Positions 3,486 to 19,835 of a stretch of DNA of 64,000 nucleotides are shown here, piece by piece. The notes below the pieces were generated by a model that worked only from the letters and a program-made list of their open reading frames with translations, had not been told where the DNA came from and did not search any database. The stretch is from assembly GCF_029891575.1 (NCBI RefSeq), contig NZ_JARZHF010000006.1:124001-188000 (forward strand), given 5' to 3'. The translations under genes were made by a program, and so were the position numbers. The first letter of the stretch is position 1; every line of letters begins with the position of its first letter. This DNA is from Salipaludibacillus daqingensis. GTDB taxonomy: Bacteria > Bacillota > Bacilli > Bacillales > Salisediminibacteriaceae.

Positions 3486-3533
3486 AAAACAACAAAAACA
3501 ATACAAAACAACACAAATCAAATAAAAACACAA
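3486..3533 (+). promoter_or_regulatory. Triple direct-repeat operator upstream of the sugar ABC operon
   Basis: Three copies of an AAAACA-type repeat: AAAACAACA at 3486 and 3505 and AAAACACAA at 3525, spaced 19 and 20 bp, i.e. about two helical turns. The same arrangement, with the same spacing and roughly 40 of 46 bases identical, lies before the microcompartment operon at 10652-10698. On the other strand the repeat reads TGTTTT, similar to repeats bound by DeoR-family regulators in Firmicutes. It probably binds the DeoR-type protein encoded at 9820-10578. Confidence 0.7.
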
Positions 3534-3541
3534 AAGAAACC

Positions 3542-3570
3542 TTGTATAAAGTTTGTATATATGATATTAT
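3542..3570 (+). promoter_or_regulatory. Sigma-A-like promoter of the sugar ABC operon
   Basis: TTGTAT at 3542-3547 and TATTAT at 3565-3570 are separated by exactly 17 bases. The element sits just downstream of the triple repeat and about 70 bases before the start codon at 3641, and a candidate cre site follows it. Confidence 0.55.
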
Positions 3571-3588
3571 CACCTTAATAGTAAGAAT

Positions 3589-3602
3589 TGTAAGCGCTTT
3601 TT
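3589..3602 (+). promoter_or_regulatory. Candidate CcpA catabolite-responsive element (cre)
   Basis: TGTAAGCGCTTTTT matches the Bacillus cre core (TGNAANCGNNNNCA) except for the final CA, and has the palindromic AAGCGCTT centre. It lies about 20 bases downstream of the predicted -10 box, a position where CcpA binding usually represses. This would fit glucose repression of a sugar-uptake operon. Confidence 0.5.
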
Positions 3603-3640
3603 TAGTGGTTTGTTACAGATACTATAAGGAGGGCAAGGAA

Positions 3641-4792
3641 ATGAAAAAGGGGATTTTTGGTAAATCGTTGTTGGTTACGTTGATGGCGTCTGTTTTGTTA
3701 GTTGGTTGTGGTGATGAAAACGCAGATACAAGTGAAGCATCTGGGAATAATAATGACAATACAGAAAATAATAGTGAGAATGAAAACGCGGAAGGCAGTA
3801 TGGATGGCGTACCTGAGCGTTTTGCTGGGGATGAAGAAACAAAAATTCGTGTCATTCGTAAAATTGGAGGCGACGATCACACAGCCCAGTTTTTAGCAGG
3901 TGCTAGTGAAGAAGGTTCTTCTCTTGGTTTTGATGTAGACGTCTTTACTGCAAACGGAGATTCTGCTCGTTTCCACGATGCTATTGCTCAAGCGATAGAT
4001 GAGAACGTTGATGGACTAATTATTTCACACGGAGATGATTCAGCTACTTTTGATGCAGTGAATGAAGCACGGGAAGCGGGCATTGAAGTAGTAACTTTTG
4101 ACTCGGTTCCTGAATTAGAAGATATCGAAGGAGTAACTTCAACGTCTCAAGATGATGAAGCTCTAGCAACTCTTGCTCTCGAACAATTAGTACAAGACCA
4201 CGATGGAGAAGCAAATATTGTATATCTTTGGGTTGACGGTTTTCCACCAATGGTTCGTAGAAATAACATCTTCCAAGAATATATGGATGAATACGAAGGG
4301 TTAGTTGAAGTTGATCGGTTTGGAGTAGCGGCTGAAGATACAACTGGTCAAACACAAAACGCAGTATCAGCCATGCTTAATGCTTATCCTGAAGGAGAAA
4401 TTGACGCCATTTTTGCTACTTGGGATGCCTTCGCAATTGGAGCAGCGCGAGCTATAAATGAAGTTAATCGGAATGAAATTGATATTTATGGTATTGATGT
4501 ATCGAATGCTGACTTAGAGATTATGCAGCAAGAAGATAGCCCTTGGAAGTATACGGCAGCTGTAGATCCAAAGCAGATTGGTTCTGTAAACATGCGAATA
4601 CTTGCTAAGAAACTTGCTGGTGAAGAAACACCTGTAACGTATGACTTAGATGCGACACTCATTTCTCAAGAACAACTTCAAACGAGTGATGAAGCTGTAA
4701 ATATGGAAAGTTTACAAAATATTATTCCAGAGTGGGGTAAATCAGACGAGTTTCTTGAAGATTGGATGGAAACGCTGAAGGCTAATAACTAA
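3641..4792 (+). CDS. Sugar ABC transporter substrate-binding lipoprotein (RbsB-like)
   Basis: Periplasmic-binding-protein-type lipoprotein of 383 residues that captures a sugar for the RbsAC-like transporter encoded next. A longer reading frame exists, but the ATG at 3641 has an AAGGAGG box about 7 bases upstream and gives a proper lipoprotein signal (MKKGIFGKSLL, lipobox LVGC with Cys at about 21). A low-complexity Asn/Glu linker follows, then a type I binding-protein fold with DGLIISHGDD, GIEVVTFDSVP and DAIFATWDAFAIGA segments. Given the kinase and isomerase genes downstream, the ligand is probably 5-deoxyribose, methylthioribose or a similar pentose rather than ribose. A terminator-like hairpin directly after the gene would keep its expression above that of the membrane components. 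Confidence 0.88.
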   Translation: MKKGIFGKSLLVTLMASVLLVGCGDENADTSEASGNNNDNTENNSENENAEGSMDGVPERFAGDEETKIRVIRKIGGDDHTAQFLAGASEEGSSLGFDVDVFTANGDSARFHDAIAQAIDENVDGLIISHGDDSATFDAVNEAREAGIEVVTFDSVPELEDIEGVTSTSQDDEALATLALEQLVQDHDGEANIVYLWVDGFPPMVRRNNIFQEYMDEYEGLVEVDRFGVAAEDTTGQTQNAVSAMLNAYPEGEIDAIFATWDAFAIGAARAINEVNRNEIDIYGIDVSNADLEIMQQEDSPWKYTAAVDPKQIGSVNMRILAKKLAGEETPVTYDLDATLISQEQLQTSDEAVNMESLQNIIPEWGKSDEFLEDWMETLKANN

Positions 4793-4800
4793 ATGAGTTG

Positions 4801-4829
4801 AAGGGGGGATCCGATCTCCCCTTTTTTTT
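4801..4829 (+). terminator. Attenuating terminator between binding protein and ATPase genes
   Basis: A 10-bp stem (AAGGGGGGAT at 4801 with ATCTCCCCTT at 4814, one G-T pair) and a 3-base loop are followed by eight T. It lies between the binding-protein and ATPase genes of one operon. It is most simply read as a partial terminator that makes the binding protein more abundant than the transporter core. Confidence 0.8.
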
Positions 4830-4848
4830 GAAAGAGGTGTTATTCAGC

Positions 4849-6354
4849 ATGGCAAAAAATAAATTATCGATGACAGATATTACAATTGAATTCCCAGGGG
4901 TCAAAGCTCTTGATCAAGTCAACTTTGAAACGGAAACTGGCGTTTCCCATGCTTTAATTGGGGCGAATGGAGCTGGTAAGTCTACACTGATGAAAGTTCT
5001 TTGTGGAGCTCATGATCATTATACAGGCGAAATTTATTTAAATGGTGAAAAAGTAAGTATACGTAGCCCAAAGGATGCACAAGATTTAGGGATTCAAATC
5101 GTATACCAAGAAGTCGATACAGCATTGATACCATACCTTAGCGTAGCAGAAAATATCATGTTGAATGAAACGGTTAGCGATATGGGGAAGAAACAAGTAG
5201 TTAAATGGAAACATATATACTCAAGAGCTCAAGAAATCCTAACAAGTATGAACGTCCATGTTTCTCCCAGAAAACTAGTTAGTGAGTTATCTTTATCAGA
5301 AAAGCAAATGGTTTTAATAGCTCGTGCAATATCAAAGGAATGTAAATTTTTAATCCTTGACGAACCGACAGCTCCTCTAAGCCTTACGGAAACAGATGAA
5401 TTGTTTCAGATTGTAAACGATTTAAAAAGCCGTAATGTAGGAGTTATCTTTATTTCTCACCGAATTCCTGAACTTTTCGAAATTTGTGATGAAATAACAA
5501 TTATGCGTAATGGTAAATTCATTATTAAAGAGGATATCCAACAGACGACGATCAATCGTGTAATTGAACATATGTTAGGTCAGAAATTAGATGAGCAATT
5601 TCCACCTCGACACGCCAATATTGGAGAAGTCGTTCTTGAAACAATGAGTCTTTCTGATCGAGAGAAGATTTTCGAGATCGGAATAAACGTAAAGAAAGGT
5701 GAAATTGTTGGATTGGCAGGCCTTGTGGGAGCGGGAAAAACAGAGTTTTGTAAAGCTCTATTCGGTGTGGCAAAAAAGGTTGATGGTGACATCGTTTTAA
5801 GTGGGAAAAAAGTAAAAATACGCACCCCTTATGATGCAGTAAAGCTTGGTTTTGCGCTTGTTCCAGAAGAACGTCGAAAAGAAGGTATCTTAGTTCATGA
5901 AACGGTTGTGACTAATTTTTCAGCTGCTAGTTTAAATAACTTTTTAAAAGTATTTAGTTTTCTAGATTTTAAGTCTGAAGCTAAAAAAGCTCGTGAAATG
6001 ATTCAAAGTCTAGGGGTGAAAACCCCATCTGAACGGACGATTGTGGAGAATTTGTCTGGTGGTAACCAGCAAAAGATTGCCATTGGTAAATGGCTTGTTG
6101 CAGATGCAGAAGTTTATATTTTTGATGAGCCCACAAAAGGCGTAGACGTAGGGGCGAAACGAGATATCTTTAATTTGATAACTGCCTTAGCAGAACGAGG
6201 GAAATCTGTCATTTATGCTTCTAGTGAACTATCAGAAATCATGGGAATAAGCGATAGAATTTATGTCATGTTTGATGGAAGAATTGTGAATGAAGTGATG
6301 AAAGAAGAAACAGATGAAGAAAAATTGCTACTTTATTCAACGGGGGGAAATTAG
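4849..6354 (+). CDS. Sugar ABC transporter ATP-binding protein, two ABC domains (RbsA-like)
   Basis: Cytoplasmic ATPase of 501 residues with two fused ABC domains, the arrangement of the ribose/galactose (CUT2) importer class. The first half has Walker A GANGAGKST, a degenerate signature region (SELSLSEKQM) and Walker B FLILDEPT. The second half has the less typical Walker-A-like GLVGAGKTE, the signature LSGGNQQK and Walker B YIFDEPTKGVD. The start at 4849 is preceded by AAAGAGGTG; the upstream in-frame extension runs through the terminator hairpin and is unlikely to be translated. The permease gene follows after one base. Confidence 0.93.
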   Translation: MAKNKLSMTDITIEFPGVKALDQVNFETETGVSHALIGANGAGKSTLMKVLCGAHDHYTGEIYLNGEKVSIRSPKDAQDLGIQIVYQEVDTALIPYLSVAENIMLNETVSDMGKKQVVKWKHIYSRAQEILTSMNVHVSPRKLVSELSLSEKQMVLIARAISKECKFLILDEPTAPLSLTETDELFQIVNDLKSRNVGVIFISHRIPELFEICDEITIMRNGKFIIKEDIQQTTINRVIEHMLGQKLDEQFPPRHANIGEVVLETMSLSDREKIFEIGINVKKGEIVGLAGLVGAGKTEFCKALFGVAKKVDGDIVLSGKKVKIRTPYDAVKLGFALVPEERRKEGILVHETVVTNFSAASLNNFLKVFSFLDFKSEAKKAREMIQSLGVKTPSERTIVENLSGGNQQKIAIGKWLVADAEVYIFDEPTKGVDVGAKRDIFNLITALAERGKSVIYASSELSEIMGISDRIYVMFDGRIVNEVMKEETDEEKLLLYSTGGN

Positions 6355-6355
6355 T

Positions 6356-7354
6356 ATGAGCAATTCAAACTCAGTTGATACGAAAAAAAGCGGCCACAGC
6401 TTTGATCTATTCGACTTTATGTACAAGTATGGGACACTCATTCTCATTGTATTATTAATTATATTTTTCTCTACCATGAACCAAAACTTTTTACAGACGA
6501 GTAATCTTGTAAATATTCTTCGGTCCATTTCTATCGTAACGATTATTGGAGTTGGTATTACGATATCTTTATCTGTGGATGGTTTTGATTTATCAGTAGG
6601 GTCTGTTGCATCTCTAGCAAACGCAGTGGTCATATCTATGTTTGTTTGGTATCAACAGCCAGCTGTCATTGCAATTGGTGCAGGATTAATGGCGGCATTA
6701 CTTGTAGGTGCTTTTAATGCATTTATGATCGTGAAGGTTAAAATTCCAGATTTACTTTTGACTCTAGCAACGATGTTTATTATTCAAGGGGTGGCACTAA
6801 GCTACACGAGAGGAGCAACGATTTCTCAAAATATGATTATGTCTGATGGGACGTATGCAGAAGGACAAATTTCACCATTTTTTGCGAAACTAGGGCAAAT
6901 TCCGTGGATTATTATTATCATGCTTATCGTTGTCGTCGTCGTACATATTTTCTTGACGTACACGAAACATGGTCGGTATATGTATGTCATTGGTGGCAAT
7001 AAAGAAGCTGCTAGATTATCTGGAATACCAGTTAACAAATATAAAATATTGGCATATTTACTATCAGCTTCCTTTGCAGCCATTGGCGGAATGGTTCTAG
7101 CTTCTCGAGTAATGACGGCAGAAATTAATGCCGGTGGACCTTATTTAATGGATGCGGTAGCTGCTGCATTTATTGGTTTCGCAGTACTAGGAGCTGGAAA
7201 ACCAAATGCCTTTGGAACATTTATTGGTGCGGTTTTAATTGGAATTCTAGCAAATGGTTTAGTCATGATGTCGGTTCCTTATTATGCAATGGATATCGTC
7301 AAAGGAACTGTACTTGCTTTAGCGCTTGCATTAACATATTACAAGATTAAATAA
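6356..7354 (+). CDS. Sugar ABC transporter permease (RbsC-like)
   Basis: Membrane protein of 332 residues with about nine or ten hydrophobic segments, typical of the ribose-type permease family (BPD_transp_2). Family segments include the SVDGFDLSVGSVASLAN stretch and the C-terminal GKPNAFGTFIGAVLIGILANGLVMM. GGGGGAAATT just upstream serves the ATG at 6356. It is the fixed transmembrane partner of the ATPase and the lipoprotein, and is followed 18 bases later by the kinase gene, so import and phosphorylation are coupled in one transcript. Confidence 0.92.
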   Translation: MSNSNSVDTKKSGHSFDLFDFMYKYGTLILIVLLIIFFSTMNQNFLQTSNLVNILRSISIVTIIGVGITISLSVDGFDLSVGSVASLANAVVISMFVWYQQPAVIAIGAGLMAALLVGAFNAFMIVKVKIPDLLLTLATMFIIQGVALSYTRGATISQNMIMSDGTYAEGQISPFFAKLGQIPWIIIIMLIVVVVVHIFLTYTKHGRYMYVIGGNKEAARLSGIPVNKYKILAYLLSASFAAIGGMVLASRVMTAEINAGGPYLMDAVAAAFIGFAVLGAGKPNAFGTFIGAVLIGILANGLVMMSVPYYAMDIVKGTVLALALALTYYKIK

Positions 7355-7372
7355 GGATGGAGGGGTCTCGTA

Positions 7373-8602
7373 ATGTCCAATACAGATTTTAAAACGGAGT
7401 ACTTTACGATGAAAGAAGAGGATGTCATCCAATATGTGAAAACGGAACTTAGTTTTTTCAAAGAAGACGCAAAGCTCGAATGTAAAGAAATTGGTGATGG
7501 AAATCTGAACTATGTTTTCCTCGTTAAAGATGAAGTTCATGGAGATTCTATCATTATTAAACAAGCTGGACCGGTGGCAAGAATTTCAGACGAGTTTAAA
7601 TTATCGCCTGATAGAAACAGAATAGAAAGTGAAATATTAAAAATTCATGATGAGTTAGCAGAAGGGTTTGTTCCGAAGGTCTACCATTATGATCCGATTA
7701 TGAATTGCACGGCAATGGAAGATTTGTCTGATCATACGATTATGCGTGATGCGTTGATGAATAAAGAATCCTTCCCTTTGTTTGCAGATCATATTACAAC
7801 GTTTATGGTAAACACGTTGCTTCTAAGTTCCGATGTTGTCATGGAGCATAAAAAGAAGAAGGACTTAGTGAAGTCGTTTGTTAATCCAGAACTGTGTGAA
7901 ATTAGTGAGGATTTAGTATTTACGGAACCATTCTTTGATTGTGTTCGAAACGACGTATTTGCTGGCACTCGTGATTTCGTTGAAAAGGAAATCTGGAGTG
8001 ACGATGCCTTGAAGTTAGAGACTGCGAAACTAAAGTTTGATTTCATGGCAAATGCCCAGTCACTGATTCACGGTGACTTGCATACGGGCTCAGTGTTTAT
8101 TAAACCTGATTCAACAAAGGTGATTGATCCAGAATTTGCTTTTTATGGACCTGCTGGCTACGATGTGGGAAATGTCATTGCAAACCTCATTTTTGCTTAC
8201 GTAAATGGTGTGGTGACAATGGATGAAGGCTCTGAAAAATCAGAGTATGTAGGATTTTTAGAAAAAACGATTACCGATGTGATCGATTTATTTAATAATA
8301 AATTTAAAGTTGCTTGGGACACCTATGTAACGGAACAGACAGCAAAGTATCCAGGGTTTATGGATCATTATTTAGCATCCATTTTGAAAGATACTGCAGG
8401 AATTGCTGGTTGTGAACTGATTAGACGGACAGTTGGTCTTGCTCATGTAAAAGACTTAACATCCATTGAAAGTGCTGAAAAGAGAACAAGAGCGGAAAAG
8501 GTTTGTTTAGCTGTTGGGAAAGCATTTATTCTTGAACGGGAAAACTTACATTCTGGTGAGAATTATATGGAAATTTTGAATCAGAAGATGAACGAGATTT
8601 AA
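7373..8602 (+). CDS. mtnK: S-methyl-5-thioribose kinase homologue (5-substituted pentose kinase)
   Basis: Kinase of 409 residues in the MtnK family, which phosphorylates the C1 hydroxyl of methylthioribose with ATP. Family signatures are GDGNLNYVFLVKD near the N-terminus, SIIIKQAGP (ATP lysine), the catalytic loop SLIHGDLHTGSV and the metal-binding VIDPEFAFYGPAGYDVGN. GGAGGGG precedes the ATG. None of the other methionine-salvage genes (mtnW, mtnX, mtnB, mtnD) is nearby. The next genes instead lead to an aldolase, so the physiological substrate may be 5-deoxyribose or methylthioribose destined for cleavage. The family call is firm; the substrate is inferred. Confidence 0.88.
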   Translation: MSNTDFKTEYFTMKEEDVIQYVKTELSFFKEDAKLECKEIGDGNLNYVFLVKDEVHGDSIIIKQAGPVARISDEFKLSPDRNRIESEILKIHDELAEGFVPKVYHYDPIMNCTAMEDLSDHTIMRDALMNKESFPLFADHITTFMVNTLLLSSDVVMEHKKKKDLVKSFVNPELCEISEDLVFTEPFFDCVRNDVFAGTRDFVEKEIWSDDALKLETAKLKFDFMANAQSLIHGDLHTGSVFIKPDSTKVIDPEFAFYGPAGYDVGNVIANLIFAYVNGVVTMDEGSEKSEYVGFLEKTITDVIDLFNNKFKVAWDTYVTEQTAKYPGFMDHYLASILKDTAGIAGCELIRRTVGLAHVKDLTSIESAEKRTRAEKVCLAVGKAFILERENLHSGENYMEILNQKMNEI

Positions 8603-8620
8603 AAAAGAGGAGAGAGCGCT

Positions 8621-9688
8621 ATGGAAGGGAACGTCATTCAGTCGGTACGTCTCGATGATGCTAACGATACGTTGGTTCTTCTAGATCAAACTGTCTTACC
8701 TGAACAAATGACTTTTTTATCGTTAACAAAAGTGGAAGAAGTATGGGATGCTATCTATCATCTTAAGGTCCGGGGGGCTCCCGCTATTGGTATTGCTGCT
8801 GCGTATGGTGTTTATTTAGCGGTGAAACCGTCTAGTGCAGAAACGACAGCGGCATTTTATAAAGACTTTAAGAAGGCCAAAGCATACTTGGCTTCGTCCA
8901 GACCAACTGCCGTAAATTTATTCTGGGCTCTAGATCGGATGGAGCGTCGTTTTGTAAAGGAAATGGAAGAAAATAAAGGGCCAGTTGAAGTGAAGCATGC
9001 CCTCTATCATGAATCAGAAATGATTCGCGATGAAGATGAACAAGTTTGTAAGACAATTGGAGAACACGCACTGACTTTATTAAAGCCAAATATTGGGATA
9101 TTAACTCATTGCAATGCAGGAACAATAGCAACAGCCAAGTATGGAACGGCGTTGGCACCAATTTATTTAGGGAATGAACAAGGATATAACTTTAAAGTGT
9201 TTGCAGATGAAACAAGACCTTTATTACAAGGGGCTCGTTTAACCGCTTGGGAATTACAACAAGCGAAAGTAGATGTGACACTCATTTGTGACAACATGGC
9301 TTCTATTGTCATGAAAGAAGGGAAAATTCAGGCTGTGTTGGTCGGTTGCGACCGTGTAGCTGCCAATGGGGATACGGCAAATAAAATCGGAACATCAGGA
9401 GTTGCGATTTTAGCAAAACATTACAACATTCCATTTTACGTTTGTGCGCCGCTTTCGACGATTGATCTCGCTTGTGCAACAGGGGATGATATTGAAATTG
9501 AAAATCGTAGCGCAGAAGAAGTAACAGACAAGTGGTATGAAACACGAATGGCACCAGAAGATGTGAAAGTGTATAATCCAGCTTTTGACGTCACGGATCA
9601 TTCGTTAATTACGGCGATTGTTACAGAAAAAGGGATCGCATATCCCGGATACGAAAACAGTTTAAAAGTATTGTTCAAGGACAATTAA
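8621..9688 (+). CDS. mtnA: S-methyl-5-thioribose-1-phosphate isomerase homologue
   Basis: Isomerase of 355 residues in the MtnA/eIF2B-like family, which converts a 5-substituted ribose-1-phosphate to the ribulose-1-phosphate. Conserved elements are [13 protein letters not shown] (residues 51-63), the catalytic cysteine in [10 protein letters not shown] (Cys164) and the catalytic aspartate in [17 protein letters not shown] (Asp244), offset by four from Cys160/Asp240 of the Bacillus subtilis enzyme. The gene closes the transporter-kinase operon; a terminator follows. Its product is what a class II fuculose-type aldolase would cleave to DHAP plus an aldehyde, which fits the neighbouring operon. 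Confidence 0.9.
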
Positions 9689-9724
9689 CCAAAGGAGAGT
9701 GTCTCCAATACCGTTCTGAATTCC

Positions 9725-9819: not shown

Positions 9820-10578
9820 TCATGCTTCATGTAAAGTAATTTGTAAATTTTCGAAAAACGTATGCCAGTCATCGGATAACGTATCGTCAACGATGACATG
9901 TTGAAAAGCATCAAAATCACATATCTTGATGAACGATGTTTTATCGAATTTAGTGTAATCAGCAATTAAAAATACTTGATTACCGTGTTTCGCTGCGATA
10001 TTTCTTACACCTGCTTGAAGCTCATTGGAATCGGTGATTCCGTGATCCATGCTGACAGACCGACATGAAATAAATGCAGCATCGTAAAAATAGTTAAGCA
10101 AGTCAGATTCCGCGGCTCGACCTAGATTTGATTGGGAAGAGCGAGAAAAAGTTCCACCAATGACAACAAGGTTGATATTCGGACTGTCGTTTAATGTATT
10201 TACAACTTTGATGGAGTTGGTAACAACGGTGAGATTTAAATTATTCAACATACTTGCGATCATGAGTGATGTTGTTGATGCGTCAAGAAAGATGGAGTCC
10301 CCACTATGAATGAAGGATAAACACTTTTTTGCAATTTTTTTCTTTCCTTCAACATGGATGTATTCTCGAAGGTTAATGTCCACATCGTTTTGGACGCCTT
10401 CAGAAATATAGGCGCCACCATAAGTTCGGGTCAGAATTCCTTCTTCTTCTAATTGTTTTAAGTCTCGTCGTATCGTTTCCTCAGTAACTTTAAACTGTTT
10501 TGTCATTTGAGCGACTGTTAAGCTCTTTTTTTCAATAATCATTTCTTTGATTTGGTTTTTTCGTTCGATGGGTAGCAT
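9820..10578 (-). CDS. DeoR-family transcriptional regulator
   Basis: Sugar-responsive regulator of 252 residues. The N-terminus has the DeoR winged helix-turn-helix (LTVAQMTKQFKVTEETIRRDLKQLEEEG, residues 19-46, with the family signature ending in RTYGGAY). The C-terminal sensor domain has the phosphosugar-isomerase-like fold, with SIFLDASTTSLMIASML and VVIGGTFSRSS. It lies between the transporter operon and the divergent microcompartment operon, and an identical triple-repeat element precedes both. It most likely controls both in response to a phosphorylated pentose intermediate. Whether it represses or activates cannot be seen. Confidence 0.9.
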   Translation of the reverse strand: MLPIERKNQIKEMIIEKKSLTVAQMTKQFKVTEETIRRDLKQLEEEGILTRTYGGAYISEGVQNDVDINLREYIHVEGKKKIAKKCLSFIHSGDSIFLDASTTSLMIASMLNNLNLTVVTNSIKVVNTLNDSPNINLVVIGGTFSRSSQSNLGRAAESDLLNYFYDAAFISCRSVSMDHGITDSNELQAGVRNIAAKHGNQVFLIADYTKFDKTSFIKICDFDAFQHVIVDDTLSDDWHTFFENLQITLHEA

Positions 10579-10651: not shown

Positions 10652-10698
10652 AAAACAACAAAATCAAGATAAAACAACACAAAACCAAATAAAACATT
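10652..10698 (+). promoter_or_regulatory. Triple direct-repeat operator upstream of the microcompartment operon
   Basis: AAAACAACA at 10652 and 10671 and AAAACATT at 10691 repeat at 19 and 20 bp, the same geometry as at 3486-3533, with the bases in between also largely shared. The third copy overlaps the predicted -35 box. It lies in the divergent intergenic region between the DeoR-type gene and the aldolase gene, so it could control both directions. Confidence 0.72.
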
Positions 10699-10761: not shown

Positions 10762-11535
10762 ATGAAGAAACCAACATATTATTCTGATTTTGAAGCGAAA
10801 AAGTTGATTTGTGATATTGGCCAGAGGGTTTACAATAAAAATTTCGTCGCAGCTAACGATGGGAATATTTCTGTGAAGTGTGGACCAGACACAATCTGGA
10901 CCACGCCAACTGGAGTAAGTAAAGGATTTATGCGTCCAGATATGATGGTGAAAATGAACCTCGATGGAAAGGTTTTATCTGGCACGTATAAACCATCTTC
11001 AGAAGTAAAGATGCATATCCGTGCATATAAAGAAAATCCAGAAATCAATGCAGTTGTACATGCTCATCCACCAGTTGCTACATCTTTTGCTATTTCAGGT
11101 GTGGAGCTTGATAAACCAATCTCACCCGAAGCTATCGTGTTATTAGGGACAGTCCCAATTGCCCCATATGCTACGCCAGGTACGGAAGAAGTGCCAGAAT
11201 CGATTGCACCGTATTGTCGCGACTACAACGCCGTGTTATTAGCGAACCATGGAGCATTAACATGGGGACGAGATTTAATCGAAGCATATTACCGGATGGA
11301 GTCGTTAGAGCATTATGCATTGATGACGATGTATTCCACGAATATTATCCAGCGAAGCAATGAATTAAATTGCACCCAAGTTTCTGACTTACTGGCCATT
11401 CGTGACAAGTTGGGCATTAAAACAGGAGGAACGCCACCATGTCATGTGGAGGAAAAGAAGGAAGAAAAAACGATCAATATCGAGCAAATTGTTGAACAAG
11501 TCACCCGGGAAGTGTTGAAGAAATATCAACGGTAA
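10762..11535 (+). CDS. Class II aldolase (fuculose-1-phosphate aldolase type) with C-terminal encapsulation peptide
   Basis: Zinc aldolase of 257 residues in the L-fuculose/rhamnulose-1-phosphate aldolase family, splitting a ketose-1-phosphate into DHAP and an aldehyde. Key residues by family comparison are Glu81 (SSEVKMH), the zinc ligands His100 and His102 (VVHAHPP) and His163 (LANHGAL). After residue about 225 the protein carries a linker and a predicted amphipathic helix, INIEQIVEQVTREVLKKY, the form of microcompartment-targeting peptide found on lumen enzymes. A GGGGAGG box precedes the ATG. As first gene of the shell operon it is the likely signature enzyme. With the MtnK/MtnA homologues the substrate would be 5-deoxyribulose-1-phosphate (aldehyde product acetaldehyde) or its methylthio analogue (methylthioacetaldehyde). 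Confidence 0.9.
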   Translation: MKKPTYYSDFEAKKLICDIGQRVYNKNFVAANDGNISVKCGPDTIWTTPTGVSKGFMRPDMMVKMNLDGKVLSGTYKPSSEVKMHIRAYKENPEINAVVHAHPPVATSFAISGVELDKPISPEAIVLLGTVPIAPYATPGTEEVPESIAPYCRDYNAVLLANHGALTWGRDLIEAYYRMESLEHYALMTMYSTNIIQRSNELNCTQVSDLLAIRDKLGIKTGGTPPCHVEEKKEEKTINIEQIVEQVTREVLKKYQR

Positions 11536-11549
11536 ATGGAGGTGCGACC

Positions 11550-13094: not shown

Positions 13095-13109
13095 GTGCAG
13101 GTGATAAGG

Positions 13110-13439
13110 ATGAGTCAAGCACTAGGAATGCTCGAAGTCTTAGGGTTTAGTGTGGCGATGGCGGCGATGGATAAGGCGTGTAAGACGGCAGAAATTAAGA
13201 TTGAAGGCATTGATTGCAATAATCCTGTAGCAGGTGATCAAGCGCACATTCCCGTTGTTGTTCAGGTTAAGTTTTCAGGTGGAATTTCTGACGTTAAAGA
13301 AGCATTGGCTATCGCTGAGTTAGAGGCAATAAAGTATATACCGGAAAAAGACGTGATGATAAGAATGGTACCAAGCATGTCGAAAGAATTGAGTGGATTA
13401 TTGTCTCTTGGGAAAGTGAAGCGGAAGGCACCAAGGTAA
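13110..13439 (+). CDS. BMC-domain shell protein 1
   Basis: Single BMC-domain protein of 109 residues expected to form hexameric shell tiles. It starts MSQALGMLEVLGFSVAMAAMDKACK, the typical BMC first strand and helix, and has an inserted loop, GIDCNNPVAGDQAHIP, that is longer than in the other shell proteins here. The ATG at 13110 has GGTGATAAGG upstream; a GTG-type start 15 bases earlier is less likely because the family begins at this point. The basic C-terminal tail (KVKRKAPR) may face the lumen or bind cargo. Cys in the loop could in principle bind a metal, but this is not shown. Confidence 0.85.
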   Translation: MSQALGMLEVLGFSVAMAAMDKACKTAEIKIEGIDCNNPVAGDQAHIPVVVQVKFSGGISDVKEALAIAELEAIKYIPEKDVMIRMVPSMSKELSGLLSLGKVKRKAPR

Positions 13440-13451
13440 AGGAGGATGCCA

Positions 13452-13742
13452 ATGTATCAGTCTTATGGGTTTGTTGAAGTCATTGGTTATATCGCCGCAT
13501 CTGCTTGTGCCGATGCGATGGTGAAGGCCGCTTATGTAAAGGTGGACCGAGTGGAAAGGATTGGTGCCGGGTATGTCACAGTTGCGATCAAAGGGGATTT
13601 GGCTTCGGTACAAGCTGCCCTTCAAGTAGCGGAAGAAGTAGCTCATCGTTTCGGAGAGTTAGTTGTTACGAAAGTGATTGCTAGACCGTACGAGGGATGT
13701 TTAACCGTGATGGAGTCTCGTGAAGAAGGTGATGAAACATGA
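13452..13742 (+). CDS. BMC-domain shell protein 2
   Basis: Hexameric-type shell protein of about 96 residues (MYQSYGFVEVIGYIAASACADAMVKAAYVKVDRVE), with the GAGYVTVAIKGDLASVQAAL core and the C-terminal VTKVIARPYEG strand that ends most BMC-H domains. The start at 13452 has AAAGGAGG at optimal distance; the ATG at 13446 lies within that box's spacing and is unlikely. Its end overlaps the next start (ATGA), which indicates translational coupling. Confidence 0.88.
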   Translation: MYQSYGFVEVIGYIAASACADAMVKAAYVKVDRVERIGAGYVTVAIKGDLASVQAALQVAEEVAHRFGELVVTKVIARPYEGCLTVMESREEGDET

Positions 13743-14080
13743 CCAACTATGAAGCGATTGGGTTAATTGAAGTAAAGTACTTTACTATCGCCTCACAGCT
13801 GTTGGATGCAGTATGCAAAGGGACAAACGTGACGTTTCTGTCCAGTGAGAATTATTTAGGGGGACGATTAGTTACGTTGGTCATTGGTGGTGGGATTTCC
13901 GATGTAAAGGGAGCGCTTGAGTTAGTCAAAAACGTGAGTCCTGAAATTACATCGTCTTATTTGAAAGGGGCAATCTTGATAACCAACCCCGCAAAAGAAA
14001 TCATGGATTATCTCGTTTGGAAGAAAGAAGAACCGACAGGGGAAACCCTTAATTTAAAGGAGGATGAAGAAGATGAATGA
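13739..14080 (+). CDS. Divergent BMC-domain shell protein 3
   Basis: Protein of 113 residues with a divergent BMC domain: [27 protein letters not shown], then [24 protein letters not shown]. It keeps the length and strand-helix order of BMC-H but lacks the usual pore-loop pattern (KIGSG). It ends in an acidic tail, [12 protein letters not shown]. It is coupled to its neighbours by overlaps at both ends. It may be a pore variant or minor tile. Confidence 0.75.
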
Positions 14081-14348
14081 ATCAGTAGGGATGATTGAAA
14101 CAAGAGGGTTAACGGCAGCGATTGAAGCAACAGATGCCATGCTCAAAGCTGCTAATGTCGAAGTTGTGGGAAGTGAAAAGATAGGCTCTGGATTAGTTTC
14201 CGTCATTATTAAAGGGGATGTTGGTGCAGTAAAAGCGGCAACGGAAGTTGGAGCTGAAGCAGCTCAGAGAATTGGAGAGCTCGTAGCCGTTCATGTTATT
14301 CCAAGGCCGCATGATGAACTTAGCCACTTACTTCCTAAAAGTAAATAA
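14073..14348 (+). CDS. BMC-H shell protein 4 (canonical)
   Basis: Canonical BMC-H tile of 91 residues: [26 protein letters not shown], then [23 protein letters not shown] and the terminal [11 protein letters not shown]. The start is set at the ATG at 14073 because AAAGGAGG lies 9 bases before it; the ATG at 14064 would sit too close. It is a close paralogue of the next gene (roughly four of five residues shared), so the pair is a recent tandem duplication. Confidence 0.93.
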
Positions 14349-14371
14349 TACACAGTGAGGAGAATGAAATA

Positions 14372-14653
14372 ATGAACCATTCCATAGGCATGATTGAAAC
14401 GAGAGGGTTAACAGCAGCAATTGAAGCGGCAGATGCGATGTTGAAAGCAGCTAACGTAGAAATAGTAGGAAGCGAAAAGATTGGATCGGGTCTTGTGACA
14501 GTCATCGTACAAGGAGAGGTAGGCGCGGTGAAAGCTGCGATCGACGTGGGCTCGGAAGCGGTTCAGCGTTCAGGTGAGTTAGTTGCGGCCCATGTTATTC
14601 CACGTCCTCATGAAGATGTAGCAAAAATTTTACCGATGATTCAGTCATCGTAA
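14372..14653 (+). CDS. BMC-H shell protein 5 (canonical paralogue)
   Basis: 93-residue BMC-H tile ([60 protein letters not shown]) nearly identical to the preceding protein. AGGAG precedes the ATG. Together the two would form the bulk facets. The pore-loop residues (KIGSG) are the same in both. Confidence 0.93.
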
Positions 14654-14666
14654 AGGTGTGAAAGAG

Positions 14667-15338: not shown

Positions 15339-15353
15339 CGGAGGGTGACGAAC

Positions 15354-15617
15354 ATGTTGATAGGCAAAGTAATTTCCAATGTCATTTCGAGTCGAAAGTA
15401 TGAAGGATTGCAAGGCTATAAGTTACTCGTCATTGAGTTAAAACATACGAAAGAGCCGAAGTATGTTGTTGCTGCGGATAATATCGGAGCAGGGCGAGGA
15501 GAACATGTCTTGTTGACATCGGGACAGTCAGTGCAATATGGGCTTCAGCGTGAGGCACCAATAGACATGCTCGTCATTGGAATTTTAGACAAGGAACCAG
15601 TTTTCGAAAACGAGTAA
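15354..15617 (+). CDS. EutN/CcmL-type pentameric vertex protein (BMC-P)
   Basis: 87-residue BMC-P protein that caps the shell vertices. It begins MLIGKVISNVISSRKYEGLQGYKLLVI, has VAADNIGAGRGEHVLLTSG, the hallmark of the EutN/CcmL fold, and ends in APIDMLVIGILD. GGAGGG lies 8 bases before the ATG at 15354. It is the only vertex protein in the locus. Confidence 0.94.
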   Translation: MLIGKVISNVISSRKYEGLQGYKLLVIELKHTKEPKYVVAADNIGAGRGEHVLLTSGQSVQYGLQREAPIDMLVIGILDKEPVFENE

Positions 15618-15630
15618 GGAGGCGAGGAAC

Positions 15631-16788
15631 ATGGAACATAGAACCATTCATGTATTAGCTGTAGCAGATCCAGCAGTTTTTGTGTACACAGATGAAACAC
15701 AAGAAATTATTCAAAAATATGAACAAGAAATGGCCGTTCAGATCGTGTTTGATATTGTTCCATTTGAGACTTATTATTCTCGCCTCCTTCGTTCCTTTGA
15801 AGAAGATCTCGGTTATGACGTGATGATGATTGCCGGCCATTTATGGTTAAAGGACTTTGTCAAAGCAGGTCGACTCTTCCCATTTCATCATCCGATGGAA
15901 AACGATGTGATGCCTTTGGTAAGGAAGGAAATGTATGTAGACGGAACACGGTATTTGTATCCTTCTTTTTGTGATGGGCACATTCTCGTGTATCGAAAAA
16001 GTGTCGTCGAAAAAGCATATGGTTCCTTACCGTCAATGATCGATACCGACACAATCATTGAAGCAGCAAGAGCTTGTCACGGGCATGATGGAGTTTGGAA
16101 AGGGATTGCGTTAAAGGGGGATAAGAGCGAGATATTCTTAGATTTCCTCCCGTACTTAAGGCAGGCAGGAGAAAATGTCTTCAGTGAAGAAGGAAAAAGT
16201 CTTTTTAAGCATGATAAATCTGCAGTAGAAGCACTCGACAACTATTGTTCGTTACGTGATGTTGCTGTTGAAGGGACAGAGAAGTTCGGGAATGATGATG
16301 TTCGTGAGCAGTTGCAGAAGAGAAATTGTGCGATGGCTGTGACGTGGGGTGGTCAATTAGGGTTTGTGATGGATGAACGCATGGAAGACCGTGAAGATAT
16401 TGGCTTTGCAGTCGTTCAAACAGCGTGGAATGTGACCTGGAGTTTTGCGATTCATCGATCATGTACTCAAGTGGATGACGTTCATGATTTCCTTCAGTAT
16501 TTAACGTCTCTTGGAGTAGATAAGAAAGTTGGTCGATTTGCTGGAGCACCAGTTAGAAAAAGCTCGTATGAAGCGGATCGATTGAAGTATCCATGGTATG
16601 ACGTGCAAGAGAAGTTATTGAATGAAGTAGCAGAACCCCTGCCTGTTCGTGAAAGGATGGGAGAATTCATGGAACCGTTTTATGATGAGATATGGAAGGC
16701 ATTTGTTGGAGAAAAATCAACAGTTGCTGCGATACAAGATGTTAAGTCACGTATAGAAGAACTAGAGAAAGGGAGTCCGGGCCTATGA
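15631..16788 (+). CDS. Solute-binding-protein-like protein without signal peptide
   Basis: 385 residues resembling family 1 extracellular solute-binding proteins (IIQKYEQEMAVQIVFDIVPFETYYSRLL, DVMMIAGHLWLKDFVKAGRLFPF, NCAMAVTWGGQLGF). The N-terminus (MEHRTIHVLAVADPAVFVYTD) has no Sec signal or lipobox, so the protein should stay in the cytoplasm. It sits inside the shell operon between the vertex protein and the flavoprotein, overlapping the latter by 4 bases. It could sense or buffer a pathway ligand, or be a lumen protein. No matching permease or ATPase is adjacent. Family call fair, role unknown. Confidence 0.65.
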   Translation: MEHRTIHVLAVADPAVFVYTDETQEIIQKYEQEMAVQIVFDIVPFETYYSRLLRSFEEDLGYDVMMIAGHLWLKDFVKAGRLFPFHHPMENDVMPLVRKEMYVDGTRYLYPSFCDGHILVYRKSVVEKAYGSLPSMIDTDTIIEAARACHGHDGVWKGIALKGDKSEIFLDFLPYLRQAGENVFSEEGKSLFKHDKSAVEALDNYCSLRDVAVEGTEKFGNDDVREQLQKRNCAMAVTWGGQLGFVMDERMEDREDIGFAVVQTAWNVTWSFAIHRSCTQVDDVHDFLQYLTSLGVDKKVGRFAGAPVRKSSYEADRLKYPWYDVQEKLLNEVAEPLPVRERMGEFMEPFYDEIWKAFVGEKSTVAAIQDVKSRIEELEKGSPGL

Positions 16789-18122
16789 AGTTGCTTGTAA
16801 TTGGTGGAGTAGCTGCCGGAATGTCTGCAGCTTCGAAGTTTCGACGTCTCAATAAGGAAGCAGAAATTATCGTTTATGAAAGAGGAGCATTTACGACGTA
16901 TGGTGCATGCGGATTACCTTATTATATTTCAAATGAGAATGACGACCATCAAAAAATGATAGCTCGGTCCAAAGAACAGTTTGATGAAGTAGGCATTCAA
17001 GTGAAACTTCGACACGAAGTCGTGAAGGTAGATCCTGCAAAAAAACAGCTGATGGTAAGGGACTTAGAGACGTCACAAGTATTTTTGGAGTCTTATGACC
17101 GGTTAATGATTTCTGTTGGTACAGCTCCAATCGTGCCAGATTTTCCTGGTATTGAGTTAGAGCGGATTCATCTTTTAAAAACAATGCAAAACGGATTAAA
17201 GATCAAGGGAATCATTGAGAAACCTGAAGTTCAAAACGTGACGATTGTCGGTGGAGGATACATTGGAATTGAGATGGCAGAGGCATTGACAACACAAGGG
17301 AAGGAAGTTCGTATCATTGAGATGGAGGATCGCATTCTTCGTCCATTTGACAGAGAGCTGACAGAGAAAGCAGAAAAAGAACTGATTGACCATGGCGTGT
17401 CTCTTCATTTAGACGAGCGATTGGAACGTTTTGAAGGCGATTCTTTAGGTAATGTTCGCAGTGTCATGACAAATCGCGGATCGTATGAAACGGATTTTGT
17501 ATTATTGTCACTGGGTGTTCGACCGGCGACTTCGTTTTTGAAAGGTACCGGTATTCAACTCGCTAAAAATGGGGCAATTGTCGTTGATCGAGAAATGCGA
17601 ACGAATGTAGAAGATATTTTTGCAGCAGGCGACTGTGCAGAAGTTTACCATAAGGTAAAAGAAGAGAATGATTATATTCCGTTAGGAACGAATGCCAACA
17701 AATGTGGTCGTTTAGCTGGCGCGAATATAGCGGGATCTCACGAAAAATATGTAGGCACACTTGGTAGCGCAGCGATTAAAATCTTTAACTTGGAAATGGG
17801 AAGAACCGGGCTTTCAGAACAAGAAGCAAAAGCATTAGCGATCGACTACACAACTGTTTTTGTGGAATCGATGGATCATCCAGGTTATTACCCAAATGCT
17901 ACTCAGCTATGGATTAAGTTAATTTGTGAAAAACGAAGTCGACGGTTACTAGGGGCTCAAGTTGTCGGTGAAAAAGGTGCTGTTCTTCGAGTCGACGCTT
18001 TTGCAGTAGCCATTCATGCAAAGATGACGGCAGATCAGTTTGGAATGGTTGATTTTTGTTACGCACCACCGTTTGCAGGTGTGTGGGATGCGATGCATAT
18101 TGCAAGCAATGCAGTGAAATGA
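16785..18122 (+). CDS. CoA-disulfide-reductase-like FAD/NAD(P) oxidoreductase
   Basis: Flavoprotein of 445 residues with an N-terminal FAD site (VIGGVAAGMSAASKFRR), a single redox cysteine Cys42 in YGACGLPYY, a second nucleotide site (VTIVGGGYIGIEMAEAL) and the FAD-closing DIFAAGDCAEV. This is the layout of CoA-disulfide reductase and NADH-oxidase-like enzymes, whose one cysteine forms a mixed disulfide with CoA. In this operon it may keep the private CoA pool reduced or reoxidise NADH. Its start overlaps the previous gene and its stop overlaps the region before the next, so it is embedded in the operon. Confidence 0.85.
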   Translation: MKLLVIGGVAAGMSAASKFRRLNKEAEIIVYERGAFTTYGACGLPYYISNENDDHQKMIARSKEQFDEVGIQVKLRHEVVKVDPAKKQLMVRDLETSQVFLESYDRLMISVGTAPIVPDFPGIELERIHLLKTMQNGLKIKGIIEKPEVQNVTIVGGGYIGIEMAEALTTQGKEVRIIEMEDRILRPFDRELTEKAEKELIDHGVSLHLDERLERFEGDSLGNVRSVMTNRGSYETDFVLLSLGVRPATSFLKGTGIQLAKNGAIVVDREMRTNVEDIFAAGDCAEVYHKVKEENDYIPLGTNANKCGRLAGANIAGSHEKYVGTLGSAAIKIFNLEMGRTGLSEQEAKALAIDYTTVFVESMDHPGYYPNATQLWIKLICEKRSRRLLGAQVVGEKGAVLRVDAFAVAIHAKMTADQFGMVDFCYAPPFAGVWDAMHIASNAVK

Positions 18123-18139
18123 ATGAGGAGTTGGTGACC

Positions 18140-19024
18140 GTGTCGAAGCGGATGGGATTAGAAGAAGCAGTCCAGTCATTCGTAAAGGATGGAGACGTAT
18201 TGACGTTTAGCGGAAATGCCCTTCACCGAGCGCCAATGGCATTTGTGAGAGAGTTGGTCCGGCAAAACAAGCAGCAGTTACAAGTAGCAAAAACAGCCGC
18301 TGCTCTTGATGTGGATCTCTTGTGTGCATTCGGCTTAATGGATACCGTTCATGCGGGATTTGTCAGTTATGAGACAAAGTATGGGCTTGCGAGCTATTAT
18401 CGTAAGGCGGTAGAAGCGGGACAGGTTAAAGCAAATGAACATGCGTGTTATACGGTGATCTGTGCGTTACGAGGAGCGGTAATGAATGTCCCGTTTATGC
18501 CAGTTCATGGGTTAAAATACGGAGATTTATTAGTCGAGAACGATTATTTTATGGTTGTAGAAAATCCTTTTGAAGAATCAGCTGAAGAGAATCCTGGTGA
18601 CGAAGTTGAACGAGTAACGCTCGTAAAGACGATTCGTCCGGACCTAGCTGTCATTCATGCGCATATGTGTGATGAAGAAGGGAATGCCATCATTCATGGG
18701 GCGCAATACGAGGATATATTGATTAGTCGTGCGGCGAAACGAGTGGTGATTACGGCAGAAACGGTTGTGAAAAAGGGGAAGTTGAACAGCGGCGCTGAAA
18801 AAGTAGATATTCCCGGATTTTTGGTCGATGCCGTGGTTCATGTTCCTAACGGTGCGAAACCTTGCTCGTGTGAAGGAAAGTATGATGTGCAGGACATGGA
18901 ACTTCGGACGTTTCTTGAAACGAAATCAATGGAAGATCTTCGGTCGTGGGTTAAAACTTATGAGAAGGCAGATCGATCTTTTATCGGAAAAGGGCGGAAT
19001 AGCGGAGGTGTTAGGTCGTGGTAA
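18140..19024 (+). CDS. CoA-transferase-like subunit A (GctA/IpdA family)
   Basis: 294 residues from the proposed GTG start, resembling the alpha subunit of class I CoA transferases (glutaconate CoA-transferase/IpdA group): LEEAVQSFVKDGDVLTFSGNALHRAPMAFVREL, then DLAVIHAHMCDEEGNAIIHG, and VVITAETVV. The GTG at 18140 has GAGGAG 9 bases upstream; an ATG at 18119 overlapping the previous stop is an alternative. It would pair with the next gene product. The partner lacks the usual catalytic glutamate, so the reaction may be hydrolytic or otherwise altered. Confidence 0.78.
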   Translation: MSKRMGLEEAVQSFVKDGDVLTFSGNALHRAPMAFVRELVRQNKQQLQVAKTAAALDVDLLCAFGLMDTVHAGFVSYETKYGLASYYRKAVEAGQVKANEHACYTVICALRGAVMNVPFMPVHGLKYGDLLVENDYFMVVENPFEESAEENPGDEVERVTLVKTIRPDLAVIHAHMCDEEGNAIIHGAQYEDILISRAAKRVVITAETVVKKGKLNSGAEKVDIPGFLVDAVVHVPNGAKPCSCEGKYDVQDMELRTFLETKSMEDLRSWVKTYEKADRSFIGKGRNSGGVRSW

Positions 19025-19770
19025 TGTATGAGGGCAATGTTCATTCAACAAATAAAGAATGGCAAATAAGTGATTTGATGACTTGTGTCATTGCAAGATT
19101 ACTGAAAGATCGCGAAACGGTATTTCATGGCGTTTCATCGCACCTTCCAATGGTAGCTATGCAGTTAGCTAAGCAGTTACACGCGCCAAATCTCGTACAC
19201 TTGAATATTCCAGGAGGAGTGAATCCTACAAGTTTACGAGAGACGACATATTCGTCCGCTGGTCCAGATTTGTTACGAAGCGCAGAGTCTTCTTTTTCTT
19301 TGGCTGAAGTTTTCGATCTATCTATGAGGGGAAAGTTGGATGTCGCGTTTTTAGGTGGCATTCAATTTGATGTGAAAGGAAATGTGAATGCATCGACCAT
19401 TGGCCCTTACAAAAAGCCGAAGGTAAGGCTACCAGGAGGAGCGGGAAGTGCTGTTTTAATTCCTACAGCAAAAAAAGCGATTATTTGGCGTACGAAACAT
19501 GACCGACGAACGTTTGTGGAAGACGTGGACTTTGTGACAACTCGAGGAAACTTATGGAAGATCGTAACGCCTCTTTGTGTATTTGGTTATAGGGATGGTC
19601 GATTAATGTTAGATGCCATCCATCCGAATACGACAGTAGAAGAAGTACAGGAGAATACAGGCTTTAAACTGCAATACGATCATATAGAATACACGAAAGC
19701 ACCGACGCGAGAAGAAATGGGTGTTCTCCGACGTGTTGACCCTAAAAATGTAAGGTCATTGGAATTTTAA
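19018..19770 (+). CDS. CoA-transferase-like subunit B (GctB/IpdB family)
   Basis: 250 residues of the beta-subunit type: LMTCVIARLLKDRETVFHGVSSHLPMVAMQLAK, HAPNLVHLNIPGGVNP, LDVAFLGGIQFDVKGNVNAS and LPGGAGSAVLIPTAKK. In glutaconate CoA-transferase the catalytic Glu sits in the strand after the APN/APD segment; here that strand reads NLVHLNIPGG with no Glu, which resembles the IpdB hydrolase-like branch. A GTG at 19018 (GGAGGTG 7 bases before) is taken as start; the ATG at 19024 is an alternative. It is the last gene of the shell operon, followed by a strong terminator. Confidence 0.78.
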   Translation: MVMYEGNVHSTNKEWQISDLMTCVIARLLKDRETVFHGVSSHLPMVAMQLAKQLHAPNLVHLNIPGGVNPTSLRETTYSSAGPDLLRSAESSFSLAEVFDLSMRGKLDVAFLGGIQFDVKGNVNASTIGPYKKPKVRLPGGAGSAVLIPTAKKAIIWRTKHDRRTFVEDVDFVTTRGNLWKIVTPLCVFGYRDGRLMLDAIHPNTTVEEVQENTGFKLQYDHIEYTKAPTREEMGVLRRVDPKNVRSLEF

Positions 19771-19783
19771 GTCTTTTTTACCA

Positions 19784-19835
19784 AAACCTCAGCAAGTAGA
19801 CAATGATAAGGTCTGCTTGCTGAGGTTTCTTATAT
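19784..19835 (+). terminator. Terminator of the microcompartment operon
   Basis: An 18-bp stem (19784-19801 with 19811-19828; arms AAACCTCAGCAAG... and ...CTTGCTGAGGTTT, one G-T pair) with a 9-base loop and a T-rich tail. It lies 13 bases after the stop codon of the CoA-transferase-like subunit B. Confidence 0.92.

Follow-up and report, generated by a model that had tools for sequence, protein, structure and literature searches.

Organisation of the locus

We analysed a 64,000-nucleotide stretch of the Salipaludibacillus daqingensis genome (the window; positions 124,001 to 188,000 of contig C6). The genome comprises 4.58 Mb in 27 contigs and is labelled G000; the other genomes and loci that we compared carry G and L numbers, respectively. 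Positions 3486-19770 of the window hold a bacterial microcompartment (BMC) locus. It combines a sugar importer, an MtnK-family kinase and an MtnA-family isomerase with a class II aldolase, a coenzyme A (CoA)-acylating aldehyde dehydrogenase (AldDH), the phosphotransacylase PduL and a set of shell proteins (Table 1). This is a real, conserved microcompartment locus, and its gene order recurs across many genomes, beyond what chance would produce. We propose that it encodes a catabolic microcompartment for the 5-deoxypentose or dihydroxyacetone phosphate (DHAP) shunt, a reading to which we assign a probability of roughly 0.78.

The first-pass annotation, which was made from the sequence alone, had named the importer, MtnK, MtnA, the class II aldolase, the AldDH, PduL, five BMC-domain proteins and one vertex protein, and we found all of them at the positions it gave. 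It had also described the aldolase-shell operon as divergent. This is not the case: both enzyme operons run on the plus strand and only the DeoR gene between them lies on the minus strand. The start it assigned to the locus, 3486, is the first base of an operator shared by the two operons and not a gene start, and the genes at 15631-19770 (a solute-binding-like protein, a flavoprotein resembling CoA-disulfide reductase (CoADR) and a pair resembling CtfA/CtfB) were absent from its text. The claim that neither a glycyl radical enzyme nor a B12 diol dehydratase is present holds for the genes of the locus, but the genome has a second, separate shell locus of the pdu type on contig C7 (L059, C7:10001-30000), where a B12 diol dehydratase scores 1034 bits and PduG 1011 bits.

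Table 1. Features of the microcompartment locus in window coordinates. Scores are bits unless marked E; the cut-off of the BMC domain model PF00936 is 24.5 bits.
Feature	Position	Strand	Evidence and remarks
Operator copy 1	3486..3517	+	32 bp, bipartite; before importer-mtnK-mtnA operon
RbsB-like sugar ABC substrate-binding lipoprotein	3641..4792	+	RbsB model 51.6, cut-off 337
RbsA-type importer ATPase	4849..6354	+	XylG 499.4, AraG 497.7, RbsA 493.8; none over cut-off
RbsC-type permease	6356..7354	+	Ribose permease model 196.6, cut-off 398
MtnK-family kinase (5-methylthioribose/5-deoxyribose), predicted cytosolic	7373..8602	+	TIGR01767 454.0, cut-off 275
MtnA-family 1-phosphate isomerase, predicted cytosolic	8621..9688	+	TIGR00512 436.5, cut-off 279
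DeoR/AgaR-family regulator	9820..10578	-	AgaR model 167.7, under cut-off
Operator copy 2	10652..10683	+	Before aldolase-shell operon
Class II aldolase, signature enzyme	10762..11535	+	Core ~1-216, disordered linker, C-terminal targeting helix 240-256 (predicted)
CoA-acylating AldDH, predicted N-terminal targeting helix	11550..13094	+	PRK15398 644.5, cut-off 403
BMC-H 1	13095..13439	+	PF00936 43.8
BMC-H 2	13446..13742	+	PF00936 70.8
BMC-H 3	13739..14080	+	PF00936 45.8
BMC-H 4, basal-type	14064..14348	+	PF00936 101.6; KAAN and PRPH motifs
BMC-H 5, basal-type	14372..14653	+	PF00936 106.1; KAAN and PRPH motifs
PduL phosphotransacylase, predicted N-terminal targeting helix	14658..15338	+	PRK15070 251.9, cut-off 209
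BMC-P vertex protein, EutN/CcmL family	15345..15617	+	CcmL E 2.2e-16, EutN E 1.9e-12; under NCBIfam cut-offs
Solute-binding-protein fold (SBP_bac_1), no evident signal peptide	15631..16788	+	PF01547 68.3
CoADR-like flavoprotein	16785..18122	+	Best solved relative 3cgb, 404.7
GctA/AibA-like subunit, CoA-transferase-family pair	18119..19024	+	Pairs with the gene at 19018..19770
GctB/AibB-like subunit	19018..19770	+	LNIPGG at catalytic-site position

Shared operator and genome context

The two operator copies share 29 of their 32 bases. When 34-mers of the two upstream regions are compared, the best pair agrees at 30/34 positions; the highest value among 60 first-order random resamples was 25. 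A search of the whole genome with the 32-bp consensus, allowing up to three mismatches, returned only these two sites, and the reversed-pattern control returned none. As the consensus was built from the same two sites, the informative part of this result is its absence elsewhere together with the likeness of the copies. The shared operator and the DeoR gene placed between the operons make co-regulation of the two operons likely, and the DeoR protein is presumed from its position to act at both operators. A promoter-like TTGACA follows operator copy 2 at position 10697. We used the promoter and terminator scans for this element only, since their totals were close to the shuffled expectation (48 vs 44.4 and 14 vs 10.8, respectively). 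Matches to a cre consensus were dropped (73 in the window compared to 82.6 expected by shuffling).

MtnK and MtnA both score above their equivalog cut-offs, as expected for a shunt with an MtnK-type kinase and an MtnA-type isomerase. The genome contains a single MtnK and a single IF-2B/MtnA-family gene, both at the locus. The downstream enzymes of methionine salvage, the dioxygenase ARD and the dehydratase MtnB, did not emerge from our searches of the window genome: we found no ARD, and the family PF00596 matches the aldolase of the locus and one other place only, with 45.7 bits inside a longer frame. The usual methionine-salvage outlet thus appears to be missing. Across the ten genomes with a window-type shell locus ARD was present in three, RhaA in one and the C-terminal domain of FucI (PF02952) in none. 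Neither RhaA nor the FucI domain was found in the window genome; the fucose search covered this route alone.

Conservation in other genomes

A search with the aldolase across 397 genomes of the order identified 17 genomes at E ≤1e-30. Besides the window genome there are 16 relatives, nine with the same shell operon (L043-L051) and seven without adjacent shell genes (L052-L058). In a wider scan of named genomes we used the best 80 of 560 confirmed stretches. We then counted 92 loci, the window not among them: 41 are shell-linked, with a BMC or EutN family member near the aldolase, and 51 are shell-less. L051 and L055 (on the same contigs as L067 and L078), L058 (distant aldolase), L144 (truncated) and the pdu locus L059 of the window genome itself were left out, and L154-L158, which were found later, stand outside the 92. 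Gene frequencies are given for loci with adequate flanks, i.e. at least 3.5 kb upstream and at least 6 kb downstream (35 shell-linked and 36 shell-less loci). Near-identical Lacrimispora-type loci (L089, L091, L092 and L093) were kept and the counts are therefore not independent.

MtnA lies near the aldolase in 31/35 shell-linked and 34/36 shell-less loci, MtnK in 29/35 and 15/36, respectively. AldDH and PduL were each found in 32 of the 35 shell-linked loci and in none of the 36 shell-less ones. For the CoADR-like thiol-disulfide flavoprotein we observed 27/35 vs 6/36 (the match in L097, counted among the six, is distant and on the opposite strand), and for the CtfAB-like pair 27/35 vs 0/36. 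The synteny spans Bacilli, Clostridia and Spirochaetes, and PF03319 matches the vertex family at the corresponding place in relatives. Within the family of the window genome an MtnK over the cut-off occurs in 7 of 35 genomes; six of these genes adjoin shell genes (G000, G002, G033, G017, G021 and G018) and in the stretch that we took around the seventh, in G023, there are none. Elsewhere in the genus MtnK is missing from all seven genomes, so the locus is patchy.

Trees were built with a quick search and SH-aLRT support only. Several small clades are common to the aldolase and the MtnK tree: the window with L043-L045, L066/L073, L050/L065, L076-L078 with L054, and L090-L092. This repetition of many small clades supports co-inheritance of the two genes. 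A clade of 59 MtnK rows (support 99) excludes L147, whose kinase is 43% identical and whose 4.2-kb stretch has no MtnA. The shell label requires 18 changes on the aldolase tree, with six of them forced by well-supported branches, and thus points to repeated loss, gain or transfer of the shell.

Aldolase and predicted targeting helices

By alignment the aldolase has the metal site and the catalytic Glu of a class II enzyme. All 16 aligned aldolases share residues E81, H100, H102 and H163; E81 aligns with the catalytic Glu76 of DrdA and presumably acts as the base, and the three histidines are presumably the metal ligands, by analogy with FucA. The class given in the first-pass annotation is correct, while its label "fuculose-type" applies at the level of the fold and not of the subfamily. 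Of the NCBIfam subfamily models shown, none reaches its cut-off with this protein (NF043034 is best, with 133.6 vs a cut-off of 250), and its fold neighbours YgbL, FucA and DrdA share 24-31% identity with it. In the best structure model (mean pLDDT 79.3; 58.1-66.9 for the other four) the core is followed by a linker with pLDDT <50 at residues 229-238 and then by the terminal helix.

Amphipathic helices are predicted at the termini of the aldolase, AldDH and PduL, for which 16, 12 and 44 of 1000 shuffles, respectively, were as good. The same test gave no such helix on MtnK or MtnA. The C-terminus of the CtfA-like protein is also amphipathic (12 of 1000 shuffles) and by our judgement was not counted as a targeting helix. 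The core enzymes thus carry predicted targeting helices, as in a metabolosome. From this distribution we infer that the kinase and the isomerase work in the cytosol and that the enzymes making and using the aldehyde are inside the shell.

In 41/41 shell-linked compared to 19/51 shell-less loci the aldolase has a tail that extends 30 or more residues beyond the core. The Fisher test gives p = 9e-12 over the 92 loci, uncorrected for kinship and with a 30-residue cut-off that was chosen after seeing the tails. Outside the Bacilli most shell-less aldolases extend 25 residues or fewer beyond the core, except in L097, L102, L105, L109 and L127. L102 lies at a contig edge and has PduL nearby; its shell genes may therefore fall beyond the end of the contig.

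The idea of the first-pass annotation that the shunt has been enclosed in a shell is largely supported by these results. MtnK and MtnA are tied to the shell operon by the unique shared operator, the synteny, the matching clades and the absence of the searched fucose/rhamnose isomerases and methionine-salvage enzymes, and the helices agree with this. The sequence does not decide between 5-deoxyribose and methylthioribose as the substrate.

Proposed pathway and alternative explanations

5-Deoxyribose and methylthioribose are by-products of S-adenosylmethionine that nearly every cell makes and some cells excrete. They arise from the cleavage of 5'-deoxyadenosine and methylthioadenosine in other cells. 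In the proposed pathway the RbsABC-type importer would take up a ribose modified at C5, with 5-deoxyribose and/or 5-methylthioribose as the most likely substrates. Judging by their families, MtnK would phosphorylate C1 in the cytosol and MtnA would isomerise the product to the ribulose-1-phosphate form. The 5-modified ribulose-1-phosphate would then enter the shell, where the tailed aldolase may split it into DHAP and acetaldehyde or methylthioacetaldehyde. The tailed AldDH would convert the aldehyde to an acyl-CoA and the tailed PduL would convert this to an acyl-phosphate, both at the level of family function, with CoA freed inside. DHAP would leave the shell to glycolysis and the reactive aldehyde would be kept in it until converted to the acyl-phosphate. 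The DeoR protein presumably represses both operons via the shared operator. A precedent is described in PMC6079011, where DrdK, DrdI and DrdA convert 5-deoxyribose to DHAP and acetaldehyde and methylthioribose is also taken.

Several observations weigh against this reading. Identity of the aldolase to DrdA is only 31%, and the closest solved structures are those of YgbL proteins. DrdA is the third match by sequence and the fourth by fold, and orthology to it is not borne out. The aldolase forms a branch separate from DrdA, and its specificity is therefore argued from context and not from orthology. The aldolase-linked kinases L057 and L012 fall outside the main MtnK clade together with L147, so shunt and salvage kinases are not cleanly separated on the MtnK tree. 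Among the six family genomes with MtnK beside shell genes, G018 has split frames, a completeness of 76% and a contamination of 6%. The operator is also less general than the window suggests. We chose 27 locus pairs (the window and 26 others) and scored 26 of them, L090 being excluded because it has no intergenic stretch. In 22 of the 26 scored loci no match rose above all 60 resamples; the four in which the match exceeded all 60 are the window (30/34), L043 (26), L044 (26) and L091 (27). Operator sharing is thus shown for the window genome and hinted at in three relatives, and does not extend to the family as a whole.

Six of the 35 shell-linked loci lack an adjacent MtnK (L048, L086, L087, L137, L104 and L107), and the first four of these also lack MtnA nearby. 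The shell operon of L048 has neither gene in the stretch taken, and an importer-MtnK-MtnA cluster lies ~50 kb away on the same contig. The L086 genome has such a cluster ~12 kb from the aldolase, apparently on the same contig. For L107 we detected only a kinase of 255 bits, which is under the cut-off, and the genomes of L087 and L104 have no MtnK. In L137 (9995-20792) an outlying relative of the aldolase (51%) is instead paired with a diol-dehydratase-like set, together with AldDH and BMC genes; the same genome has a separate, ordinary importer-MtnK-MtnA-aldolase cluster. L087 and L137 may be genuine variants for other substrates.

The tails also fit less well than the overall test implies. 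Their association with the shell is clumped on the tree: independent pairs average three for, none against and three without a difference, with a median p of 0.25. In addition, 19 shell-less loci, 14 of which are from Bacilli, still have the tail, which is therefore no proof of encapsulation. The 14 tailed shell-less Bacilli mostly nest among or beside shell-bearing relatives, and the vertex family PF03319 has no match in G261, G109 and G059, which are shell-less with a tailed aldolase. This suggests shell loss that left orphan targeting tails behind. By appearance, the tails of the shell-less Bacilli resemble encapsulation peptides (L052-L054, L056, L057, L068, L071, L072, L075-L078, L083 and L088).

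We considered four other explanations. The first is a sub-case of the shunt in which 5-methylthioribose alone is the substrate, so that methylthioacetaldehyde is oxidised to methylthioacetyl-CoA and the CoADR-like and CtfAB-like proteins handle the sulfur product. We consider it unlikely. MtnK and MtnA score above the equivalog cut-offs for methylthioribose, the thiol-disulfide flavoprotein is kept far more often in shell-linked than in shell-less loci, and three loci of a second shell arrangement (see below) encode a RuBisCO-like protein, a family of which the Rhodopseudomonas palustris member RLP1 uses methylthioribulose-1-phosphate (PMC5893883). On the other hand, the specificity constants reported for DrdK in PMC6079011 are nearly equal for 5-deoxyribose and methylthioribose, hence the equivalog scores do not discriminate between the two sugars. 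The PduL route would yield energy from acetyl-CoA, whereas methylthioacetyl-CoA would give an odd thioether acid, and we identified no sulfur-recovery enzyme.

A route for ribose itself, in which MtnK- and MtnA-type enzymes produce ribulose-1-phosphate, the aldolase releases DHAP and glycolaldehyde and the latter is oxidised to glycolyl-CoA in the shell, would fit the RbsABC-type importer. A ribose side-route via methionine-salvage enzymes has reportedly been proposed for B. subtilis, judging by the title of a reference in PMC10986504. The substrate-binding protein nevertheless falls far under the ribose equivalog cut-off (Table 1) and PMC6079011 reports the related DrdK to be specific for 5-deoxyribose and methylthioribose, which makes this route very improbable.

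We regard as very improbable a PVM-type compartment that splits fuculose- or rhamnulose-1-phosphate into DHAP and lactaldehyde, with MtnK and MtnA as bystanders. The class II aldolase does have the FucA fold, the breakdown of fucose and rhamnose in PVM compartments relies on an aldolase of this kind (PMC4207490), and PMC8156839 considers a comparable substrate likely for PVM-like loci. Yet the isomerases RhaA and FucI are almost or entirely absent from the shell-locus genomes, MtnK and MtnA are syntenic with the shell genes and share their operator, and even the close shell-less relatives of the aldolase nearly always have MtnA beside them. Finally, it is barely credible that the importer-mtnK-mtnA operon is left over from methionine salvage and adjoins an unrelated shell operon by chance, given the operator that is unique in the genome, the synteny across three bacterial groups, the lack of ARD in seven of the ten shell genomes (the window genome among them) and the six of seven over-cut-off MtnK genes of the family that adjoin shell genes.

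Other features of the locus

The substrate-binding lipoprotein has a signal sequence with a lipobox-like VLLVGCG, and its start was set by the ribosome-binding site. The solved chains nearest to the AldDH are 5jfl/5jfm, 5jfn, 6gvs and 4c3s. Five BMC-H proteins stand against one BMC-P in a locus that also includes a DeoR regulator; the meaning of the KAAN and PRPH motifs as marks of the basal type follows PMC8217296. Among the genes identified in the locus there is no alcohol dehydrogenase that could recycle NAD.

The solute-binding-fold protein within the shell operon is perhaps a cytosolic sensor. The absence of its signal peptide was judged by eye from the N-termini of the window protein and 18 rows (of which L069 is a fragment and L051 duplicates L067). 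A signal-less solute-binding fold also occurs 3' of the aldolase in L110 and L118, without shell genes in the stretch taken. In the GctB/AibB-like subunit and 31 homologues Asn-Ile is invariant (32/32) at the site of AibB Cys56, the LNIPGG position at which classical members presumably carry the catalytic Glu. With Asn-Ile at the site of the catalytic residue, the GctA/GctB-like pair is probably not a classical CoA transferase. Positions 20033-23666, 3' of the locus, hold a BglG-type regulator of a phosphotransferase system (PTS; weak family matches only) and frames that by eye resemble PTS IIB/IIC.

A second shell arrangement

Eight loci (L094-L096, L101, L106, L108, L120 and L132) have a different arrangement, with MtnK/MtnA, the aldolase, PduL and a PduS-like protein; all except L132 also have AldDH. 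L094, L106, L120 and L132 each show three vertex-protein matches. L157, from the family of the window genome, also has three; PduS-like proteins were searched for in the eight loci only. A RuBisCO-like protein is encoded directly before the aldolase in L106 (8737-9969), L120 (8775-9917) and L132 (8808-9947), which are from metagenome-assembled genomes of Lachnospiraceae and Oscillospiraceae. Its best NCBIfam model is the 2,3-diketo-5-methylthiopentyl-1-phosphate enolase, far under the cut-off in all three cases. For L106 the best solved relative is 3qfw (241.6 bits), which we take to be a Rhodopseudomonas palustris protein. The DeepYkr protein RLP1 of R. palustris isomerises methylthioribulose-1-phosphate (PMC5893883). 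We tentatively suggest, and hold it to be possible but somewhat doubtful, that the shunt has entered microcompartments at least twice with different shell sets and that some members of the second arrangement added a RuBisCO-like isomerase for methylthioribulose- or 5-deoxyribulose-1-phosphate. If this were true, a RuBisCO-family enzyme would serve a catabolic compartment, and waste sugars of S-adenosylmethionine would have recurrently driven the evolution of bacterial organelles, with shells lost repeatedly and orphan tails left in Bacilli.

Another type of shell locus was seen in G291, G350 and G331, which have shell-less shunt loci. It lies beside an amidohydrolase that by eye looks like an adenine deaminase (L060, L061 and L062, respectively).

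Comparison with known systems

The first-pass annotation knew of no described compartment with MtnK and MtnA as upstream enzymes, and this agrees with the literature that we searched. The search left most subscription papers, preprints and supplements outside; within it, and with the exception of one remark, no paper connects 5-deoxyribose, methylthioribose or the DHAP shunt to microcompartments, no compartment is tied to by-products of S-adenosylmethionine, and no assay of the proteins of the locus is reported. The remark concerns Acetobacterium woodii, where a methylthioribose kinase beside a pduU-pduV pair is called "unrelated to BMC function" in a passage of PMC7593272. The terms "mtn", "thioribose" and "5-deoxy" are absent from the main texts, supplements aside, of PMC4207490 and PMC8217296.

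The shell type itself is probably already catalogued as PVM-like (Axen 2014, Sutter 2021), and the novelty therefore lies in the function and not in the shell. We base the likeness on text descriptions: the window locus fits the features described in PMC4207490 and has the pfam00596 class II aldolase in a shell locus. PMC8156839 calls a substrate like that of PVM (fucose or rhamnose) likely for this type. For the members linked to MtnK and MtnA we propose the 5-deoxypentose shunt instead. If this is true, members of a catalogued, uncharacterised organelle type would gain a concrete substrate class and pathway, and would move away from the presumed fucose/rhamnose role.

The PVM and GRM5 compartments resemble the window locus in that a class II aldolase inside the shell splits a sugar-1-phosphate into DHAP and an aldehyde (PMC4207490). 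They differ in their 6-deoxyhexose substrate, GRM5 adds a glycyl radical enzyme, and the window genome has no fucose or rhamnose isomerase of the searched families. In the SPU compartment an aldolase likewise makes acetaldehyde from a deoxypentose phosphate and an AldDH oxidises it (PMC8217296). The SPU aldolase is of the DeoC type and is accompanied by RpiB, whereas every gene of the window locus was assigned to other families. The drdKIA or mtnK-mtnA-ald2 cluster of the DHAP shunt encodes three enzyme types that also occur at the window locus (an MtnK-type kinase, an MtnA-type isomerase and a class II aldolase), and in some cases sugar transporters (PMC6079011). No shell or PduL is described in the passages of that paper on the cluster, the term aldehyde dehydrogenase is absent from its text, and the DrdA chain has 222 residues compared to 257 in the window aldolase. 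The shell-bearing and shell-less versions of the pathway in related bacteria would also offer a natural experiment on the contribution of a shell to an aldolase pathway.

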